From the IMG/VR virus record IMGVR_UViG_3300045135_000986, positions 1 through 36,649 of that record: a stretch of 36,649 bases of DNA; one strand, written 5' to 3'. How positions within the stretch are numbered: the stretch's first letter is position 1; the number at the start of each line of letters is the position of its first letter. The notes beneath the pieces were generated by a model. That model searched no databases and was not told where the DNA came from. It was given only the letters and a program-made list of their open reading frames with translations. Positions 5,199 through 35,515 of this stretch are shown here, piece after piece. This DNA is from a virus. The translations under genes and the position numbers were made by a program.

Positions 5199-5218
5199 TC
5201 TAGTGAGTACGTACTAAG
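5199..5218 (-). promoter_or_regulatory. T7-like phage RNA polymerase promoter upstream of SSB
   Basis: On the minus strand this reads CTTAGTACGTACTCACTAGA, close to the T7 class promoter core ACTCACTATAG. It lies between the RNA polymerase stop (5231) and the SSB start (5163). The same core recurs at 7807, 11608 and 35495, all in intergenic positions and all on the coding strand. Transcription would start just downstream of CACTAGA. It is preceded by AAACTTAAAGTT, also present before the 7807 copy. Confidence 0.82.
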
Positions 5219-5236
5219 CTAACTTTAAGTTTAGCT
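5217..5236 (-). repeat. Inverted repeat at the RNA polymerase stop, next to promoter
   Basis: Arms AGCTAA and TTAGCT enclose ACTTAAAG and overlap the RNA polymerase stop codon. The inner AAACTTAAAGTT recurs at the same distance from the promoter at 7807-7826. It could be a transcript 3' hairpin or an extended promoter element. No U-run follows, so it is a poor intrinsic terminator. Confidence 0.5.
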
Positions 5237-7726
5237 AAAAATATACTCACTCTTATATACATCGTTTAGGTTTAATGTGTTTATCATAATATCTTCATTA
5301 AACTCTAAGCCTAACTGCTCTACCCAATCTTTAAGAACATCTTGCGAAAACAACTCTACGTATGCCTCTCTAACATTCCTATTAAGTGAGGGTACATCGT
5401 TTGGTAGTACACCATAACTATCGTGGATTAACCAGAAGTCTTGTACACCCTCTTTCATACATTTCTCAACTGTTAAATACATAAGAGTAGCATCAAGGTT
5501 ATGTATAAAGTTAGGTGCTATACTACTTAACATCTTAGCTTTATTAATACCTTCTGTCTCTTTGTAGTAGACTAGTTTTCCAAAGGGTGTTTGTATTCTA
5601 CTCTTTGTTTCTTTTGGTACTCTTTGTAACATAGGCAAATTAAAGATAGGTGAGTACCATTTTAAATATTCATCTTTACTTGCGATAGTCTGTGTTACTT
5701 CTTTAATATACTTTTGACCTTTAATAGCACCTTCAACTACTTGACTGATTGCCCTAGCATTTACATCTGCTAATACCTTAGCAACAACCCACTTATCTCC
5801 TTTCCACCAAATGTTACCATTAAGTTCATCTTCTGTTAGTAAGTCTTTAACCTGGTCAAACATACCCCTTGCTGTTACTGAGTAAGGTGTAGTCATTACA
5901 TTTCTTTTGGTTAACTTTCTAGTTATGTTACCCTTTAAGCTTGAAGCTTCAAGTTCTGTGTTAACTGTCTTTTCGTTACCATCTGAGGTTGTAAAACTTA
6001 ACTCTTTTTGGTAGTCGTTGTTAGTAAGTAGTTGGTTACCTACATCTGCGACATCACCATAAACATCTTCTCTTGTTGAGCCTGTAACATTAACTGCTTT
6101 GGCTCCCTTACCGTCCCTTAGTAAACCTGAATAGATTTGTATACCACTACAAGTAGCATCTAAGGCAACTGGTATATGAATAGTAGCATTACTATCTTTA
6201 AAATAATCTGAAAGACTAAAACAAAAAGCTAAGAACTCAAAGGGACTGTCTGCATCAACCCAATACTCTAAATGTGCTAAAGGGTCTTCAGCTATCTCTT
6301 TGATAATCGGTATCATTTCGTTTATCTTTTCAACTCTTATGTTATAAGGTTCTTTATCGTACCCATAACAGTTAGCACCGTGTATCTTTAACGAATATAA
6401 ACCTTCATCATTTAAAACACAACCCCTATGGAACTGTAAGAGTGCCTTTAGGTTACTACTTTGCTGCGGGTTGAGGTGTTGTTGAAGTGGATATAATCTG
6501 TAACGATAGTCAAACTGGTACGTAAAGTAAAACTTTTTGTACTCTGTATATCTTTTAGCTAAATCAATAGCAAACATATAGCTGTATCTGTTACCTATAA
6601 TCTTTTCAATAACACCCTCTTGATGTGTTTTGTCTCGATAATATCGGTCGTAGTCTTCATCATTTAAAAACTTACCATTATTATCTACTAAGCCATAATC
6701 CTCCTTCTTTATTAAATCATTTATATCTAAGGTTTCAAAGGTTGGTATACCTCCAAACAGCTTAGGGTTAAGTCTGTGTGCCTTAGGGTCTTGTAGGTTG
6801 TTGTCAATTATGTAGGACATAACATCTAGTACCCTTTTATTTACCTCCCAAGGTACACTTTGTACCCTATTTATAATATCTAGCAGTCTGTGTGAGTTTC
6901 TGTTAAAGTCTGTTTCAATAAGCTTTAAGTAACTTGACTTCTGCTTTACAACAGATAACTTATATAAACCTAACAAGTAACCACCACCTCCATACAGTTG
7001 TGTATGAGGCTTAGGCTCTATAACCATAGGTACATAAGTTAGTAATGTATGTAGTAGTGTCTTTTTGTGATTAAACAATACTTTCATAGCTTTGTCTGTT
7101 AAAGCTACCTTGTACATACCCTTATAGTTTTCTACTACTTGAAACAAATCAACACCACTTTTAACAACTGCCTCTGTTAAATGACTGCCTAACTTTGTGT
7201 TAGCCTCTATGTTATCTTCATCAAAACCTTTAAGTGTTGATAACTTAACCTTTCTCTTTTTAATAAAGGCTTTACCTCTTTTTCTAAACTCATAGTCGAG
7301 GTAGCTGTATAGCTTAGGTTCATACTTTTTCAGTTTCTCAACTGCTAGTACATCATTTATATCTTTGATTATCTTTTTGGATAAACTTATAAGACTTACA
7401 GGCTCTTTAGCCGTTGATGTTAATAATGTGTTTAGTATGATGTAAGCTAACTGCTTTTCTCTACCTTGAAAAAATAACTTTAATCTTTCTTGTTCACTTT
7501 TATACTTACCTCTAAGCTGTACGTTTAAGAAAGCTTTTAGTTGCTCTACAACTGGCTCTAAGCTTATCTTTATAAGTGACTGCCCTAGGTTAGTTTCTGA
7601 TAACCTCCCCTGCTCTACAATAGCTACAAATCCTAATGCTACTTTTTGTTTAGCATCAGCAACAGTTTTACACTCTAACCTTTCTTGCTCTGTTTCAAGC
7701 TCTAGTAATTCTTTAACACTATCTAT
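5231..7726 (-). CDS. Single-subunit (T7-type) DNA-directed RNA polymerase, probable AUA start
   Basis: Phage RNA polymerase that transcribes middle and late genes from the T7-like promoters in this window; 831 aa against 883 in T7. Motif A is DATCSGIQ (about residue 522), motif B is RKLTKRNVMTTPY (about 605-617) and motif C is HDSYG (about 770), all with catalytic residues. The frame has no ATG, GTG or TTG in its first 193 codons. The first canonical option, TTG at 7147, would remove conserved N-terminal sequence such as KLGSHLTEAVVKSGVDLF. AGGAGG at 7738-7733 lies 6 bases before ATA at 7726-7724, and an in-frame TAG at 7732-7730 bars any earlier start. AUA initiation is therefore inferred; a sequencing error for ATG is the alternative. 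A phage promoter lies upstream (7807), implying self-activation. Confidence 0.93.
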   Translation of the reverse strand: MDSVKELLELETEQERLECKTVADAKQKVALGFVAIVEQGRLSETNLGQSLIKISLEPVVEQLKAFLNVQLRGKYKSEQERLKLFFQGREKQLAYIILNTLLTSTAKEPVSLISLSKKIIKDINDVLAVEKLKKYEPKLYSYLDYEFRKRGKAFIKKRKVKLSTLKGFDEDNIEANTKLGSHLTEAVVKSGVDLFQVVENYKGMYKVALTDKAMKVLFNHKKTLLHTLLTYVPMVIEPKPHTQLYGGGGYLLGLYKLSVVKQKSSYLKLIETDFNRNSHRLLDIINRVQSVPWEVNKRVLDVMSYIIDNNLQDPKAHRLNPKLFGGIPTFETLDINDLIKKEDYGLVDNNGKFLNDEDYDRYYRDKTHQEGVIEKIIGNRYSYMFAIDLAKRYTEYKKFYFTYQFDYRYRLYPLQQHLNPQQSSNLKALLQFHRGCVLNDEGLYSLKIHGANCYGYDKEPYNIRVEKINEMIPIIKEIAEDPLAHLEYWVDADSPFEFLAFCFSLSDYFKDSNATIHIPVALDATCSGIQIYSGLLRDGKGAKAVNVTGSTREDVYGDVADVGNQLLTNNDYQKELSFTTSDGNEKTVNTELEASSLKGNITRKLTKRNVMTTPYSVTARGMFDQVKDLLTEDELNGNIWWKGDKWVVAKVLADVNARAISQVVEGAIKGQKYIKEVTQTIASKDEYLKWYSPIFNLPMLQRVPKETKSRIQTPFGKLVYYKETEGINKAKMLSSIAPNFIHNLDATLMYLTVEKCMKEGVQDFWLIHDSYGVLPNDVPSLNRNVREAYVELFSQDVLKDWVEQLGLEFNEDIMINTLNLNDVYKSEYIFS

Positions 7727-7738
7727 CTTCTACCTCCT
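7724..7738 (-). promoter_or_regulatory. Strong ribosome binding site deciding a non-canonical AUA start
   Basis: Minus strand AGGAGG (7738-7733), then the 6 bases TAGAAG, then ATA. The spacing is ideal and the in-frame TAG within the spacer fixes the earliest possible start of the RNA polymerase. No other reading frame with a canonical start here gives more than a few codons (GTG at the AGTGTT ends quickly). Confidence 0.75.
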
Positions 7739-7766
7739 CTTTATTAAAGTAGTCTTAGCAGTAGTT

Positions 7767-7806: not shown

Positions 7807-7826
7807 TCAAGTGGGTCCATACTAAG
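7807..7826 (-). promoter_or_regulatory. T7-like phage promoter upstream of the RNA polymerase
   Basis: Minus strand CTTAGTATGGACCCACTTGA lies between the ThyX stop (7833) and the RNA polymerase start (7726). It shares TTAGTAYG and CCCACT-GA with the copies at 5199 and 11608. It is preceded by the perfect palindrome GAAACTTAAAGTTTC (7827-7841), which contains the ThyX stop codon. A phage promoter driving the phage polymerase gene implies positive autoregulation after host-driven early transcription. Confidence 0.78.
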
Positions 7827-7832
7827 GAAACT

Positions 7833-8432
7833 TTAAGTTTCAGTACTAACACTATCTTTAAATAAGAATATATGTTCATCTGGTATTACTTGATACATAG
7901 CCCTAGCTAAGTTCTGTATCTCCCACAATGCGTGAGAGTCTGTACGTAGTGCTAAGAAGTTCTGCAAGGCTCTAGCATTAATAGTCATTACTAAGCTAGT
8001 CTTATAGGCTTCTGGTAGCATATACTTAGCTATGTCATTAGTTACCTTACCACTCTGAAGTAAGTCTCTAAGCTTTAAGAGTTGCTCACAGTTATATATA
8101 TCTATTGTATCCCTACCTGTTAGTACCAAGAACTCATTAACAGTACCAAACTCTGAGTTCTTTAACTCACTTAACGTATATCTTGTAGATTTTACAGTAT
8201 AACTTGCTATTCTATGTCTAGCTAGTTCCTGTAGGACTGCCCTAGATATACCGTCTATATCAAAACTATATACCAAATGTTCTATGGTACTACTATGTTT
8301 ACTAACATTAGCAACTCTATCTATCCTACCTTGTATCTTCTCAAGGTCTGTGTAAGGTTTCTTGTTGTAGCATTTAGCTATTGCTGTATCTGCTACTTCT
8401 AGTGGTGTGTATTGTAATAATTCTACTTTCAT
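7833..8432 (-). CDS. thyX: FAD-dependent thymidylate synthase ThyX
   Basis: Flavin-dependent enzyme of 199 aa that methylates dUMP to dTMP using methylene-tetrahydrofolate and NAD(P)H. The signature RHR-x7-S is present as RHRIASYTVKS (R72, H73, R74, S82). The C-terminal ARALQNFLALRTDSHALWEIQ region fits the FAD/dUMP-binding part of the family. The length suits a compact phage ThyX. It is the last early gene, one base after the upstream 62-aa gene and just before the phage promoter for the RNA polymerase. It would supply dTTP for an AT-rich genome. AAAGGA precedes ATG 8432. Confidence 0.95.
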   Translation of the reverse strand: MKVELLQYTPLEVADTAIAKCYNKKPYTDLEKIQGRIDRVANVSKHSSTIEHLVYSFDIDGISRAVLQELARHRIASYTVKSTRYTLSELKNSEFGTVNEFLVLTGRDTIDIYNCEQLLKLRDLLQSGKVTNDIAKYMLPEAYKTSLVMTINARALQNFLALRTDSHALWEIQNLARAMYQVIPDEHIFLFKDSVSTET

Positions 8433-10700: not shown

Positions 10701-10724
10701 TTTGTATTCCTTTTTGTTTTTTAT

Positions 10725-10743
10725 TGATACCGAAATTATAACA
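10725..10743 (-). promoter_or_regulatory. Candidate extended -10 host promoter for the first early gene
   Basis: Minus strand TGTTATAAT is a perfect extended -10 (TGnTATAAT), 35 bases upstream of ATG 10700. The following TTTCGGTATCA is shared with the element at 10422-10440 (16 of 19 bases). The upstream TTAAGA is a poor -35, as extended -10 promoters allow. Confidence 0.55.
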
Positions 10744-11046
10744 TAGCTTTTCTTAAAAGTTTCTTAAGCGAATTGCCTCTTATTTCATAGGGCTTATATT
10801 CATTTATAGTTTAAAGCGTAACTTTAAAAGTAATAGCTTTAAACCTTTATATAAGAAATTTAAACTATGTTAACATTCTGTACCAACTTTAAATAACTCA
10901 AAGCCGTTGTTGCTTTGTATAAGAGAATTATAATATATGTTAGCTTAAAGTATTCTTAAATTTAATAGAAATACTAAAGAAATTACAAAATAAATAAAAG
11001 GCGCTAATAGTTGCTAGTAGTTAGTAGTTGAATATGGACGCGTGCG

Positions 11047-11255
11047 AATAGCTAAAGGTAGCTTAAAGAATGCTTAAGGATAGCTTCAAAATAAATTAAG
11101 TAGCTTAAAGGTAACCACCTAACATAACTTAAGGTAACCACCTAGCATAACTTAAGGTAACCACCTAAGGCTTAGCATAAAGTATCTTAAGGCTAGCTTA
11201 AAGAGGTAACCACTTAAAGTGTAGCATAAAGTAGCTTAAAGGTTGCTTAAGGCTT
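11047..11255. repeat. Array of CTTAAAG/CTTAAGG heptamers
   Basis: AGCTTAAAG, GCTTAAGG and variants recur about a dozen times, often preceded by TAG or GTAG. T7 has arrays of the heptamer CCTAAAG flanking its terminal repeat, near the sites where concatemers are cut. The unit here differs by one or two bases and sits in the same genome position. Confidence 0.75.
11104..11170. repeat. Tandem 23-24 bp repeats containing GGTAACCACCT
   Basis: Three consecutive units: CTTAAAGGTAACCACCTAAC plus ATAA (11104-11127), CTTAAGGTAACCACCTAGCA plus TAA (11128-11150) and CTTAAGGTAACCACCTAAGG (11151-11170). A diverged fourth GGTAACCAC lies at 11205-11213. Each unit joins a CTTAARG heptamer to AGGTaaccACCT, itself an inverted repeat. 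Confidence 0.9.
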
Positions 11256-11266
11256 AGCTTTTGGCT

Positions 11267-11275
11267 ATTGTACCA
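11267..11275 (-). promoter_or_regulatory. Candidate extended -10 promoter in the terminal region
   Basis: Minus strand TGGTACAAT fits TGnTAYAAT. It faces the early genes, but about 570 bases of non-coding sequence follow before the first of them. No convincing -35. Weak evidence on its own. Confidence 0.3.
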
Positions 11276-11359
11276 CAAAGAATTCTTTAGGGTCGACGGG
11301 GGAAGCTTCGAGTAGTATAATATAGATACCCTCTTAGATTTTTGTAGTATTTTTTGAAA

Positions 11360-11450
11360 GTAGTCAGTAGGAGTAGTTGTGCTTGGAGCTAAGCTAGTAG
11401 ATAGTTAGGAGAGTAGGTAGAGGTAGTCAGTAGTGGTAGTAGTGCTTGTA
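11360..11450. repeat. C-poor segment with a 28-bp imperfect direct repeat
   Basis: The copies at 11360-11387 and 11423-11450 match at 24 of 28 positions (both begin GTAGTCAGTAG and contain GTGCTTG). The plus strand from 11341 to 11460 has only a handful of C residues, so the minus strand is nearly free of G. The rest of the stretch is built from TAG/GTAG steps. Confidence 0.8.
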
Positions 11451-11455
11451 GATAA

Positions 11456-11505
11456 CTTTAAGACTGTGTTAGGAAAAAGGAGGGAAACCTAACACAGACT
11501 TAAAG
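11456..11505 (-). repeat. 18-bp inverted repeat (long hairpin)
   Basis: Arms 11456-11473 and 11488-11505 (CCTAACACAGACTTAAAG) pair at 17 of 18 positions around a 14-base loop. On the minus-strand RNA the loop is U/C-rich (TTTCCCTCCTTTTT). It lies about 100 bases downstream of the phage promoter at 11608. It could be a processing site, terminator or end-formation signal. Confidence 0.85.
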
Positions 11506-11565
11506 ATAGCTTTAATCATACGTTAGTATAATCATTACCATACGAAACCTAACACAGACTTAAAG
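11484..11565. repeat. Direct repeat of GAAACCTAACACAGACTTAA plus AG, exactly 60 bp apart
   Basis: Identical 22-base copies lie at 11484-11505 and 11544-11565. A third, slightly changed copy (AAACCTAACACAGTCTTTAA plus G) lies at 35404-35424, also downstream of a T7-like promoter. The recurrence in two promoter leaders argues for a functional RNA or DNA element. Confidence 0.85.
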
Positions 11566-11567
11566 CA

Positions 11568-11594
11568 GTTGCTCTTAACCTAACTTAAAGCTTC
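11568..11594 (-). repeat. Leader element shared with 7767-7792
   Basis: Plus strand GTTGCTCTTAACCTAACTTA plus AAGCTTC is nearly the same as the element between the 7807 promoter and the RNA polymerase. It occupies the same place, just downstream of a phage promoter. Confidence 0.5.
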
Positions 11595-11607
11595 TTTTCC
11601 CGTTACC

Positions 11608-11628
11608 TCTAGTGGGTCCATAACTCAG
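11608..11628 (-). promoter_or_regulatory. T7-like phage promoter in the terminal region (phi-OR-like)
   Basis: Minus strand CTGAGTTATGGACCCACTAG then AGG. GACCCACTAGAGG aligns with the T7 core GACTCACTATAGG with few changes. It lies just past the terminase stop and points into the gene-free region, like phi-OR/phi-OL of T7, which serve replication and packaging. It has one more base than the 5199 and 7807 copies between the upstream AG and the core, as does the 35495 copy. Confidence 0.8.
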
Positions 11629-11656
11629 GGGGTACCCTACTACAGCTACCACCCCC
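11628..11656 (-). terminator. GC-rich hairpin after the large terminase gene
   Basis: GGGGGT (11628-11633) and ACCCCC (11651-11656) can pair around a 17-base loop 19 bases after the terminase stop. No U-run follows; the phage promoter begins directly after it. It may mark the end of late transcripts. Confidence 0.4.
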
Positions 11657-11674
11657 TCGAGTCTACAACCACTT

Positions 11675-21770: not shown

Positions 21771-22109
21771 CTATTCCTCTAATGTATTAATTAAGTTTCT
21801 ATAGAATGTTCTGTTTATTAATTCTTCTTTGTACTTTTCCATTAAACTAGTTGTATCAACACCTTCTAGTTGCATTTCAGTTATCTTTACAATAACCCAA
21901 TCAGTATCAGATAAATACTTTGTAGCTTCTGCTATTTGCTTAGCTTTGTCTTCTTCTAGTTTTAAAGCATCTAAAGCATCTTGTAGTTCTTGAGGTTGAT
22001 ACATTTCTGTACCATCCTCTAAGATTTCTTTTGTGAATTCTTTAAACTCACTATCAATTTGTGTATTAGCTGTGTGTACTTCTGTACCTACTATTTTATA
22101 ATATCCCAT
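21771..22109 (-). CDS. Tail fibre assembly-like protein (behind fibre 22111-24090)
   Basis: A 112-aa protein starting MGYYKIVGTEVHT. YLSDTDWVIVKITEMQLEG (about residues 66-84) is the hallmark (L-S-D-T-D-W) of small phage fibre-assembly and XkdW-like proteins, followed by a basic helix. The ATG at 22109 has GGAGGT 7 bases upstream; an ATG at 22124 would lie ahead of that site. It overlaps the fibre gene stop by a few bases, consistent with a dedicated chaperone for that fibre. Confidence 0.72.
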   Translation of the reverse strand: MGYYKIVGTEVHTANTQIDSEFKEFTKEILEDGTEMYQPQELQDALDALKLEEDKAKQIAEATKYLSDTDWVIVKITEMQLEGVDTTSLMEKYKEELINRTFYRNLINTLEE

Positions 22110-22110
22110 T

Positions 22111-24090
22111 TTATTTACCTCCAAAAAAATGTACTGAAGCTATACAATTAACGACAGAACCATAGTAAGCCGTACCAATAGTCATATGGTTTAATTCTTG
22201 ACCTGCATTTCTAGTTCCAGTAGGCGCTCCTCCAACAATGTATGCTCCATAACCTACACCATAATTTTCTGCAGTTCCAGAAACACTATAATTTGTGTTG
22301 CCCATTTCTTCCTTAAAGTAAATATCATATTGTCCAGTACCAATTCTAACTACATCTCTAACATTAAAGCTATCTCTAATCGTAGGAGGTGTTGTAGTAC
22401 CATCAAAATTAACCCAAGCAGTACATTGGTTCTTACCTTTAACTTCACCACTTACTTCTAAGTCACCATCTACATAACTACTCTCCATAACATTCTTAGG
22501 AATACTTGGATAATCTTCTAGTCTATCCATAGGTGTACCTGAAGCTACTTGATATGGTTTATCATCTATGAAGCTGATAGGAGTTGTTAAAGCTGTAGTA
22601 CCATCATTATCGTACATAACTCCAGTTACAGTATTAAAGATAGGTAAAGCATCATAAAACTTAGGAGCATTATTACTATCTAAAGCTACATAATGAATAC
22701 CATCAGGACAAGTTGAGAAATCTACTGAACCAGTATAGCTTTGAGTAAATACATTATAAGCACCATTAGTAGTATCTCTACCATCTGTGTAAGGTAACTT
22801 ACCTGCTGTTACATTTAAGTTTGTATCATCTGTTGGTAAATCAAAGTATGTGTCATCTGTTGAGTTAGTTGTGTCGAACTCTACTATTGCTATGTATTGA
22901 CCACCTGATGCATTATAGCCAGTATTTATACCACCAACTGTAAATCCATCAATGTTTATTTCACCAGTAAAACCAAGCTCAGCTGAACTTGAGTCTAATG
23001 AAATTTGGTTAGTAGCTCCTCTTTCACTATCTATTGCATACCAGCTACCAGTACTATCAATTCTCTTAATAATAACTCTTCTAGGTCTTCTTGGTACACC
23101 ATTAACATCTTTTGTTTCTACAAAGTTACCAGATGCTCTAGTACCTTGATACTGTGTGATTATCTTAGTTTCTGAATTAGCGAATCCGTATGAGATGTAA
23201 GGTTGATTTACACCATTCCACATATTATTTGAAGAGCCAATTTCAAGATAATTATCAGAAATTATATGAGGATTTGCAGTGCTTGTAATAAATGCTCCAG
23301 TAGTGTTTATTTGACCTCTATTAATATTTCCATTTATAGACACCCAACCATCAGCAGATAAATCCAACTGTTTAATATCAACATAATCCAGCTTAATACC
23401 TAAAGCATTTGGTATCTGATGCCCTGCTATACCACTACCTTGATACATAGTCATTACTTCTCTAGTAACTGGATTGTAAGCAGTTATGTATCTTTTACCT
23501 TGATTAGTTAATCCCCACTTGATATGAGTGTATAGTGCTTGGTGGAGGATGTAAGTTTGACCAGATTGATTAACTCCTACGCCACTACCAACAGATATGC
23601 TTCCGCTTCCAAAAGCTGTAAGTGTGCCAATCGAGTTTGCTTCTGCTGCTGTTTCATTAGTGAAAACAACTTCTTGTATCCCTCTAATCCCGTCATAGAT
23701 ATTGTTACCATAGGCAGTACTCCTACATTTAATATGCACCTTACTAACATTAACTACACAACTACCACTCTCAACAATAGTACCAGCATCATTCTTTACA
23801 ATACAATCTCCAGCACTTCTATCGTGATAATACCCACTACCATTTGAAGCTACTGTAAAGTCTACTGAGCCTATACCAGTAGTAATACTTTGAGTAGAAC
23901 CATTACCAGTATAAGTTATGTTTGCATTTGATTTAGTTATAGCTGAACTTGCTAATGCTAAGTTACCTGATAGCAATACATTTGAAGCTACTTTAATAGG
24001 TGGTTGTGGTATATTGTTAATAGATGTGTCTATTTCACTTTGAGTATAGATTCCCTGACCTATATCTCTTGCGTTTTCTATATTCGACAT
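22111..24090 (-). CDS. Tail fibre / receptor-binding protein (659 aa)
   Basis: A Ser/Thr/Gly/Asn-rich beta protein. It starts MSNIENARDIGQGIYTQSEI without the anchor seen in the 763-aa fibre. The middle (about residues 200-430) contains repeats of the type ...GWVSINGNINRG..., ...PYISYGFAN... and SWYAIDSERG, typical of phage fibre domains. The C-terminus (YDIYFKEEMGNTNYSVSGTA, then HMTIGTAYYGSVVNCIASVH) looks like a trimer tip. Its ATG overlaps the preceding stop (CTAATG). A DTDW-type assembly protein follows. Host receptor unknown. Confidence 0.82.
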   Translation of the reverse strand: MSNIENARDIGQGIYTQSEIDTSINNIPQPPIKVASNVLLSGNLALASSAITKSNANITYTGNGSTQSITTGIGSVDFTVASNGSGYYHDRSAGDCIVKNDAGTIVESGSCVVNVSKVHIKCRSTAYGNNIYDGIRGIQEVVFTNETAAEANSIGTLTAFGSGSISVGSGVGVNQSGQTYILHQALYTHIKWGLTNQGKRYITAYNPVTREVMTMYQGSGIAGHQIPNALGIKLDYVDIKQLDLSADGWVSINGNINRGQINTTGAFITSTANPHIISDNYLEIGSSNNMWNGVNQPYISYGFANSETKIITQYQGTRASGNFVETKDVNGVPRRPRRVIIKRIDSTGSWYAIDSERGATNQISLDSSSAELGFTGEINIDGFTVGGINTGYNASGGQYIAIVEFDTTNSTDDTYFDLPTDDTNLNVTAGKLPYTDGRDTTNGAYNVFTQSYTGSVDFSTCPDGIHYVALDSNNAPKFYDALPIFNTVTGVMYDNDGTTALTTPISFIDDKPYQVASGTPMDRLEDYPSIPKNVMESSYVDGDLEVSGEVKGKNQCTAWVNFDGTTTPPTIRDSFNVRDVVRIGTGQYDIYFKEEMGNTNYSVSGTAENYGVGYGAYIVGGAPTGTRNAGQELNHMTIGTAYYGSVVNCIASVHFFGGK

Positions 24091-35494: not shown

Positions 35495-35515
35495 TCTAGT
35501 GGGTACGTAACTCAC
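35495..35515 (-). promoter_or_regulatory. T7-like phage promoter for the late structural operon
   Basis: Minus strand GTGAGTTACGTACCCACTAG then A. It shares GAGTTAYG-nACCCACTAGA with the 11608 copy and the ACYCACT core with all four. It overlaps the exonuclease stop (35512) and leads into the hairpin leader and the small virion genes. Confidence 0.8.

Follow-up and report, generated by a model that had tools for sequence, protein, structure and literature searches.

A probable AUA start codon behind a strong Shine-Dalgarno sequence in the RNA polymerase gene of a T7-like phage

Bacterial genes starting with codons other than AUG, GUG and UUG have been described. In Staphylococcus aureus, infC and ccpN have AUA starts located behind extended Shine-Dalgarno (SD) motifs; initiation profiling showed both starts, and reporters were used for ccpN (PMC13009471). 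Non-canonical starts in reporters (AUA or AUU) gave approximately 10% of the expression from AUG, with ccpN reaching up to 30% in rich medium (PMC13009471). The Streptomyces sigR gene starts with GTC behind the SD AGGAGGTG and is repressed by IF3, an effect that was measured (PMC5472188). The infC gene of Escherichia coli starts with AUU and is subject to IF3 autoregulation (described in PMC5472188). Our literature searches, with partial coverage, returned no described phage gene with an AUA start. Here we describe a phage RNA polymerase gene that probably has one.

The virus record analyzed (hereafter, the window) is 36.6 kb long and comes from a T7-like phage, which has connector, capsid, terminase and tail genes and also encodes a family-A DNA polymerase and a T7-type primase/helicase. 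On its minus strand, a frame spanning 7729 to 5231 from stop to stop contains a gene that encodes 831 amino acids when read from an ATA codon (5231..7726). Residues 9-830 of the product matched PHROG_414 from position 4 to position 816 of 816 (E=1.5e-174), and a Pfam RNA_pol match was also obtained (E=2e-85). The family profile matched T7 RNA polymerase itself in two stretches (T7 residues 32-342 and 389-882). Residues D522, R602, K606, Y614 and D768 were invariant in the polymerase alignment (A3), with their motifs aligned with those of T7, and we take them to be the equivalents of the T7 catalytic residues D537, R627, K631, Y639 and D812. Judging from the full-length family match and the catalytic residues, the product is a T7-type single-subunit RNA polymerase. 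A ThyX-like thymidylate synthase gene (7833..8432, minus strand; PHROG_85) lies upstream, 106 bases from the ATA.

The polymerase frame contains no ATG, GTG or TTG above a TTG at 7145..7147, which is located 193 codons below the ATA (7724..7726). An in-frame TAG (7730..7732) closes the frame above the ATA and directly follows an AGGAGG SD sequence (7733..7738; AGGAGGT including the next base), all on the minus strand, leaving a 6-nt spacer (TAGAAG) between AGGAGG and ATA. The near-cognate codons in the first 50 codons are AAG 7729, ATA 7726, AGG 7681, ATT 7621 and AGG 7606. The AAG (7729-7727) follows the SD at just 3 nt and the ATA at 6 nt, and the others are out of reach, so that the ATA is the sole near-cognate at a workable SD distance. 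The initial annotation had proposed this AUA start together with the same SD, TAG and first conventional start, an 831-residue product and 193 open codons above the TTG; every coordinate held and both lengths were reproduced. SD energies were computed for 36 genes of the window with ACCUCCUUA as the anti-SD. The polymerase ranked first, with the strongest site (-13.3 kcal/mol), the next being -10.6 and many lying near -5.6, and the SD of TTG 7147 was weak (-3.6 kcal/mol). The 35 other genes scored all start with ATG. The TTG listed as the start of the ORF at 21771-22124 is probably incorrect: the TTGGAGG at this place is itself an SD, and GGAGG precedes an internal ATG six codons in. No tRNA or Rfam element was found at the polymerase start. 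A predicted hairpin in the window takes in part of the polymerase SD and could also regulate initiation.

The nearest full-length relative that we found, L019, was recovered by a search with the neighboring thyX gene. Its polymerase is 55% identical to that of the window, and its thyX (766-1380) and polymerase genes adjoin in the same order. The start region of the L019 frame reads AGG AGG TGT AGT ATA AAC, with AGGAGG at 1370-1375 and ATA at 1382-1384 separated by a 6-nt spacer (TGTAGT), and no other start codon there is preceded by a ribosome-binding site. The SD of this ATA (-11.6 kcal/mol) is stronger than that of every plus-strand ORF scored on the L019 contig (next -9.1). The L019 polymerase frame overlaps thyX, and its only conventional starts above the ATA are ATGs inside thyX without an SD (ATG 1319: +0.1 kcal/mol). 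The alignment sets the window ATA seven codons above that of L019, and an ATA-to-ATA layout with a later gap is also possible; the two codons may therefore not be strictly homologous in position, while both stand at the same distance from the SD.

The 193 codons above TTG 7147 are coding. At a stop rate of 0.123 (that of non-coding frames of this genome), 193 open codons would arise by chance with P ~1e-11, and the other two frames carry 26 and 29 stops across the same stretch. The N-terminal part shows 48% amino acid identity with L019 and differences of 0.42/0.29/0.59 at codon positions 1/2/3, a coding pattern similar to that of the rest of the gene (0.38/0.25/0.52). Homology reaches the codons just below the ATA, where the first residues of relatives align and where PHROG_414 position 4 falls at residue 9. 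The initial annotation had read these codons as a plausible RNA polymerase N-terminus and had suggested a homology search; PHROG_414, the relatives and T7 bear out that reading, and the alignment starts at the ATA end, not at the TTG.

Translation might instead start elsewhere, namely at TTG 7147, by frameshifting from the upstream frame, or at ATG 1319 in L019. It is true that no conventional start precedes TTG 7147 in the window frame, but the SD of this TTG is weak and its use would cost 193 conserved residues. Since the family profile aligns T7 RNA polymerase from residue 32, a start at the TTG would delete a large part of the conserved N-terminal domain, and we reject it. ATG 1319 does lie in the L019 frame overlapping thyX but lacks an SD, and an L019-type upstream extension into thyX is impossible in the window because of the TAG at 7732-7730. 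This TAG, together with the end of thyX about 100 nt upstream, also leaves no room in the window for a thyX-polymerase frameshift fusion. A start other than the AUA is therefore very unlikely.

In a maximum-likelihood tree, the window, L019 and L036 formed a clade with 100/100 support. The sister groups of this clade use ATG, as do most of the more distant kin, and ten polymerase relatives of about 40% identity begin with ATG within about 7 residues of the window ATA. ATA is found in both clade members with an intact start (n = 2), as L036 is a truncated contig that lacks the start; by sequence comparison, the start codon is thus conserved in L019, the sole other intact-start phage of the clade. 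The initial annotation would have taken ATG in all close relatives as evidence against the AUA start; ATG does prevail at about 40% identity, but the nearest relative carries ATA. The path length between the window and L019 is 1.06 (about 1.06 amino acid changes per site), which, together with third positions that are 52-59% different, indicates that the shared ATA/SD arrangement does not reflect recent identity.

Further searches added few readable starts. Two contigs related to L019 begin within the polymerase gene, leaving no start to be read. Viral contigs, from which near-identical records may have been withheld, contained neither a match to the precise DNA pattern around the start nor a second copy of the window. 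An alignment query (A2) and a clade-specific peptide pattern returned the contig of L019 again and nothing else. Among the matches to the pattern LAYIILNT, only L019 encoded a polymerase, and the GTDB genome contigs searched contained no relative. Polymerases from connector relatives (44-48% identity), a partly usable set, provided two clear ATG starts. In a separate observation on the head-tail connector gene, L083 (2044-2821), compared with L070, carries an insert of roughly 770 bp within a region that is more than 99% identical. The insert encodes a 169-aa HNH-like ORF, which suggests a mobile intron or homing-endonuclease insertion, and it had no Rfam match at the gathering threshold.

The main concern raised by an ATA known from one metagenomic contig is that the true codon is ATG and that the record shows A for G, either through a mistake in sequencing or assembly or because a minority variant was recorded. 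ATG is, after all, used by all other genes of the window and by the relatives of about 40% identity. However, L019 carries ATA independently at an equal SD distance, each of the two being preceded by the strongest SD scored in its own set; two start-codon errors in two contigs are very unlikely, and the other frames of the window are intact. We therefore consider a one-base error very unlikely. A changed genetic code reading AUA as Met was also considered and ruled out: AUA codons within the polymerase gene align mostly with Ile, Leu or Val and not with Met, which, together with the ATG starts of all other genes, points to the standard code. Support for the AUA start proposed initially comes from the ATA in the diverged L019, from N-terminal homology and from the strongest SD in the genome, and we conclude that polymerase translation very probably starts at AUA 7726-7724. 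Gene finders limited to ATG, GTG and TTG would trim this polymerase by 193 residues.

A comparable situation may exist in Lauvirus lau218, the closest named relative (58% identity in the connector and 36% in the polymerase), which sits on a long branch of the polymerase tree with unsure placement. In this phage, the polymerase frame is open beyond the annotated ATG (L037:2354, KJ183192.1), up to an ATC at 2306 that lies 7 nt after AGGAG. This ATC has an SD energy of -8.7; the annotated ATG scores -5.6 and a GTG between the two +1.2. The three Lauvirus records (L037, L137 and L138) agree at the ATC site. Here too, the annotated polymerase start lies below the best ribosome-binding site. The Lauvirus polymerase may therefore start at the ATC above the annotated ATG, which we offer as a lead only; the candidate start is ATC, unlike the ATA of the window. 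Two of the three records split the polymerase annotation into two pieces.

The core of the T7 promoter is TACGACTCACTATAG, and a four-copy motif in the window resembles it in sequence. The copies are TACGTACCCACTAGA (35495..35509), TATGGACCCACTAGA in a gene-free region (11608..11622), TATGGACCCACTTGA, which precedes the ATA by about 80 nt (7807..7821; one mismatch to the consensus TAYGKACYCACTAGA), and TACGTACTCACTAGA in the gap that separates the polymerase gene from the next gene (5199..5213), all candidate phage promoters found by motif search. With at most one mismatch, TAYGKACYCACTAGA, a consensus built from the very four sites that match, occurs at these sites (35509, 11622, 7821 and 5213), all on the minus strand and all intergenic, and at no site on the plus strand of the window. 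When the single 11622 copy was used as the query with at most three mismatches, six matches were obtained against 0.77 expected, and none of 100 shuffles reached six. TATGGACCCACTTGA recurs near 11622 together with part of its downstream sequence. The surrounding region (10701-11674), about 1 kb and gene-free, contains 23-bp tandem repeats (AGGTGGTTACCTTAAGTTATGCT) in addition to the promoter-like site, and a terminator-like inverted repeat, AAGTCTGTGTTAGG...CCTAACACAGTCTTAAAG; it is possibly a genome-end or early-control region.

Because the motif occurs only between genes, and one copy immediately precedes the polymerase gene, this gene probably activates itself through the predicted promoter. 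The window motif is absent from L019, and no such site was found upstream of the L019 polymerase. The phage of L019 has a repeated motif of its own, TGTTRCAGATACCGA, at two intergenic places (L157:3900 and 13970), one copy sitting just after the polymerase gene, as the 5213 site does in the window; by sequence, this is a candidate promoter set unlike that of the window. The self-activation suggested by the initial annotation thus gains a T7-promoter-like site at 7821-7807 in the window but finds no counterpart upstream of the L019 gene. A promoter-driven loop is therefore supported for the window only, and the AUA start is independent of the promoter arrangement of the window.

These features suggest how the start might act. 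The seven-base SD match AGGAGGU, whose AGGAGG is separated from the AUA by six bases, would keep the 30S subunit on this codon, of which only two bases would pair with the initiator tRNA. Initiation would be weaker than at AUG, with IF3 disfavoring the complex and probably repressing it, and the strong SD would partly rescue it; less polymerase would consequently be made per mRNA. The reduced dose is proposed by analogy with the published AUA, AUU and GTC starts, and by the same analogy the throttling probably depends on IF3. If, as is probable, the polymerase drives transcription of its own gene from the phage-type promoter about 80 nt upstream, a weak start would limit this positive loop.

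Alternatively, the AUA could be a tolerated mutation without a special regulatory role, compensated by the strong SD. A strong SD can offset a weak codon, and L019 lacks the upstream promoter copy; on the other hand, ATA is present across about 1.06 amino acid changes per site, even though ATG is just one base change away, and a strong SD is present in both phages. We regard the absence of a role as unlikely. We lean slightly towards the AUA start being a deliberate brake on polymerase output, most likely serving to keep a self-activating polymerase in check. The explanation as a whole, in which an AUA start with a strong SD limits polymerase synthesis and so restrains a self-activation loop, seems to us likely. 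A broader and rather doubtful idea is that a T7-like phage lineage combines IF3-discriminated starts (AUA, and perhaps AUC in Lauvirus) and very strong ribosome-binding sites in order to restrain production of a self-activating polymerase or to tie it to the initiation-factor state of the host, the start codon thereby setting the timing of the lytic transcription switch. Should the present case be confirmed, it would provide a conserved AUA start from a phage and would illustrate how a polymerase that amplifies itself is limited by the choice of its start codon.

Compared with T7 gene 1, the polymerase belongs to the same family over nearly its whole length. T7 gene 1 has a conventional ATG start and is not known to have a T7 promoter immediately upstream. 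The S. aureus infC and ccpN genes are similar in their AUA start, unusually strong SD, conservation among relatives (ccpN) and regulator product; they are cellular genes, whereas the present gene encodes a phage RNA polymerase known from its sequence. Streptomyces sigR shares the combination of a rare start codon and the SD AGGAGGTG on a transcription-directing protein whose level must stay low, but the codon is GTC and the product is a cellular sigma factor with an antisigma factor partner. E. coli infC shares a start codon of the IF3-discriminated class and differs in that the codon is AUU and that its own product gives the negative feedback. The polymerase start described here would thus be a phage version of a device for limiting translation that is already known from bacteria.
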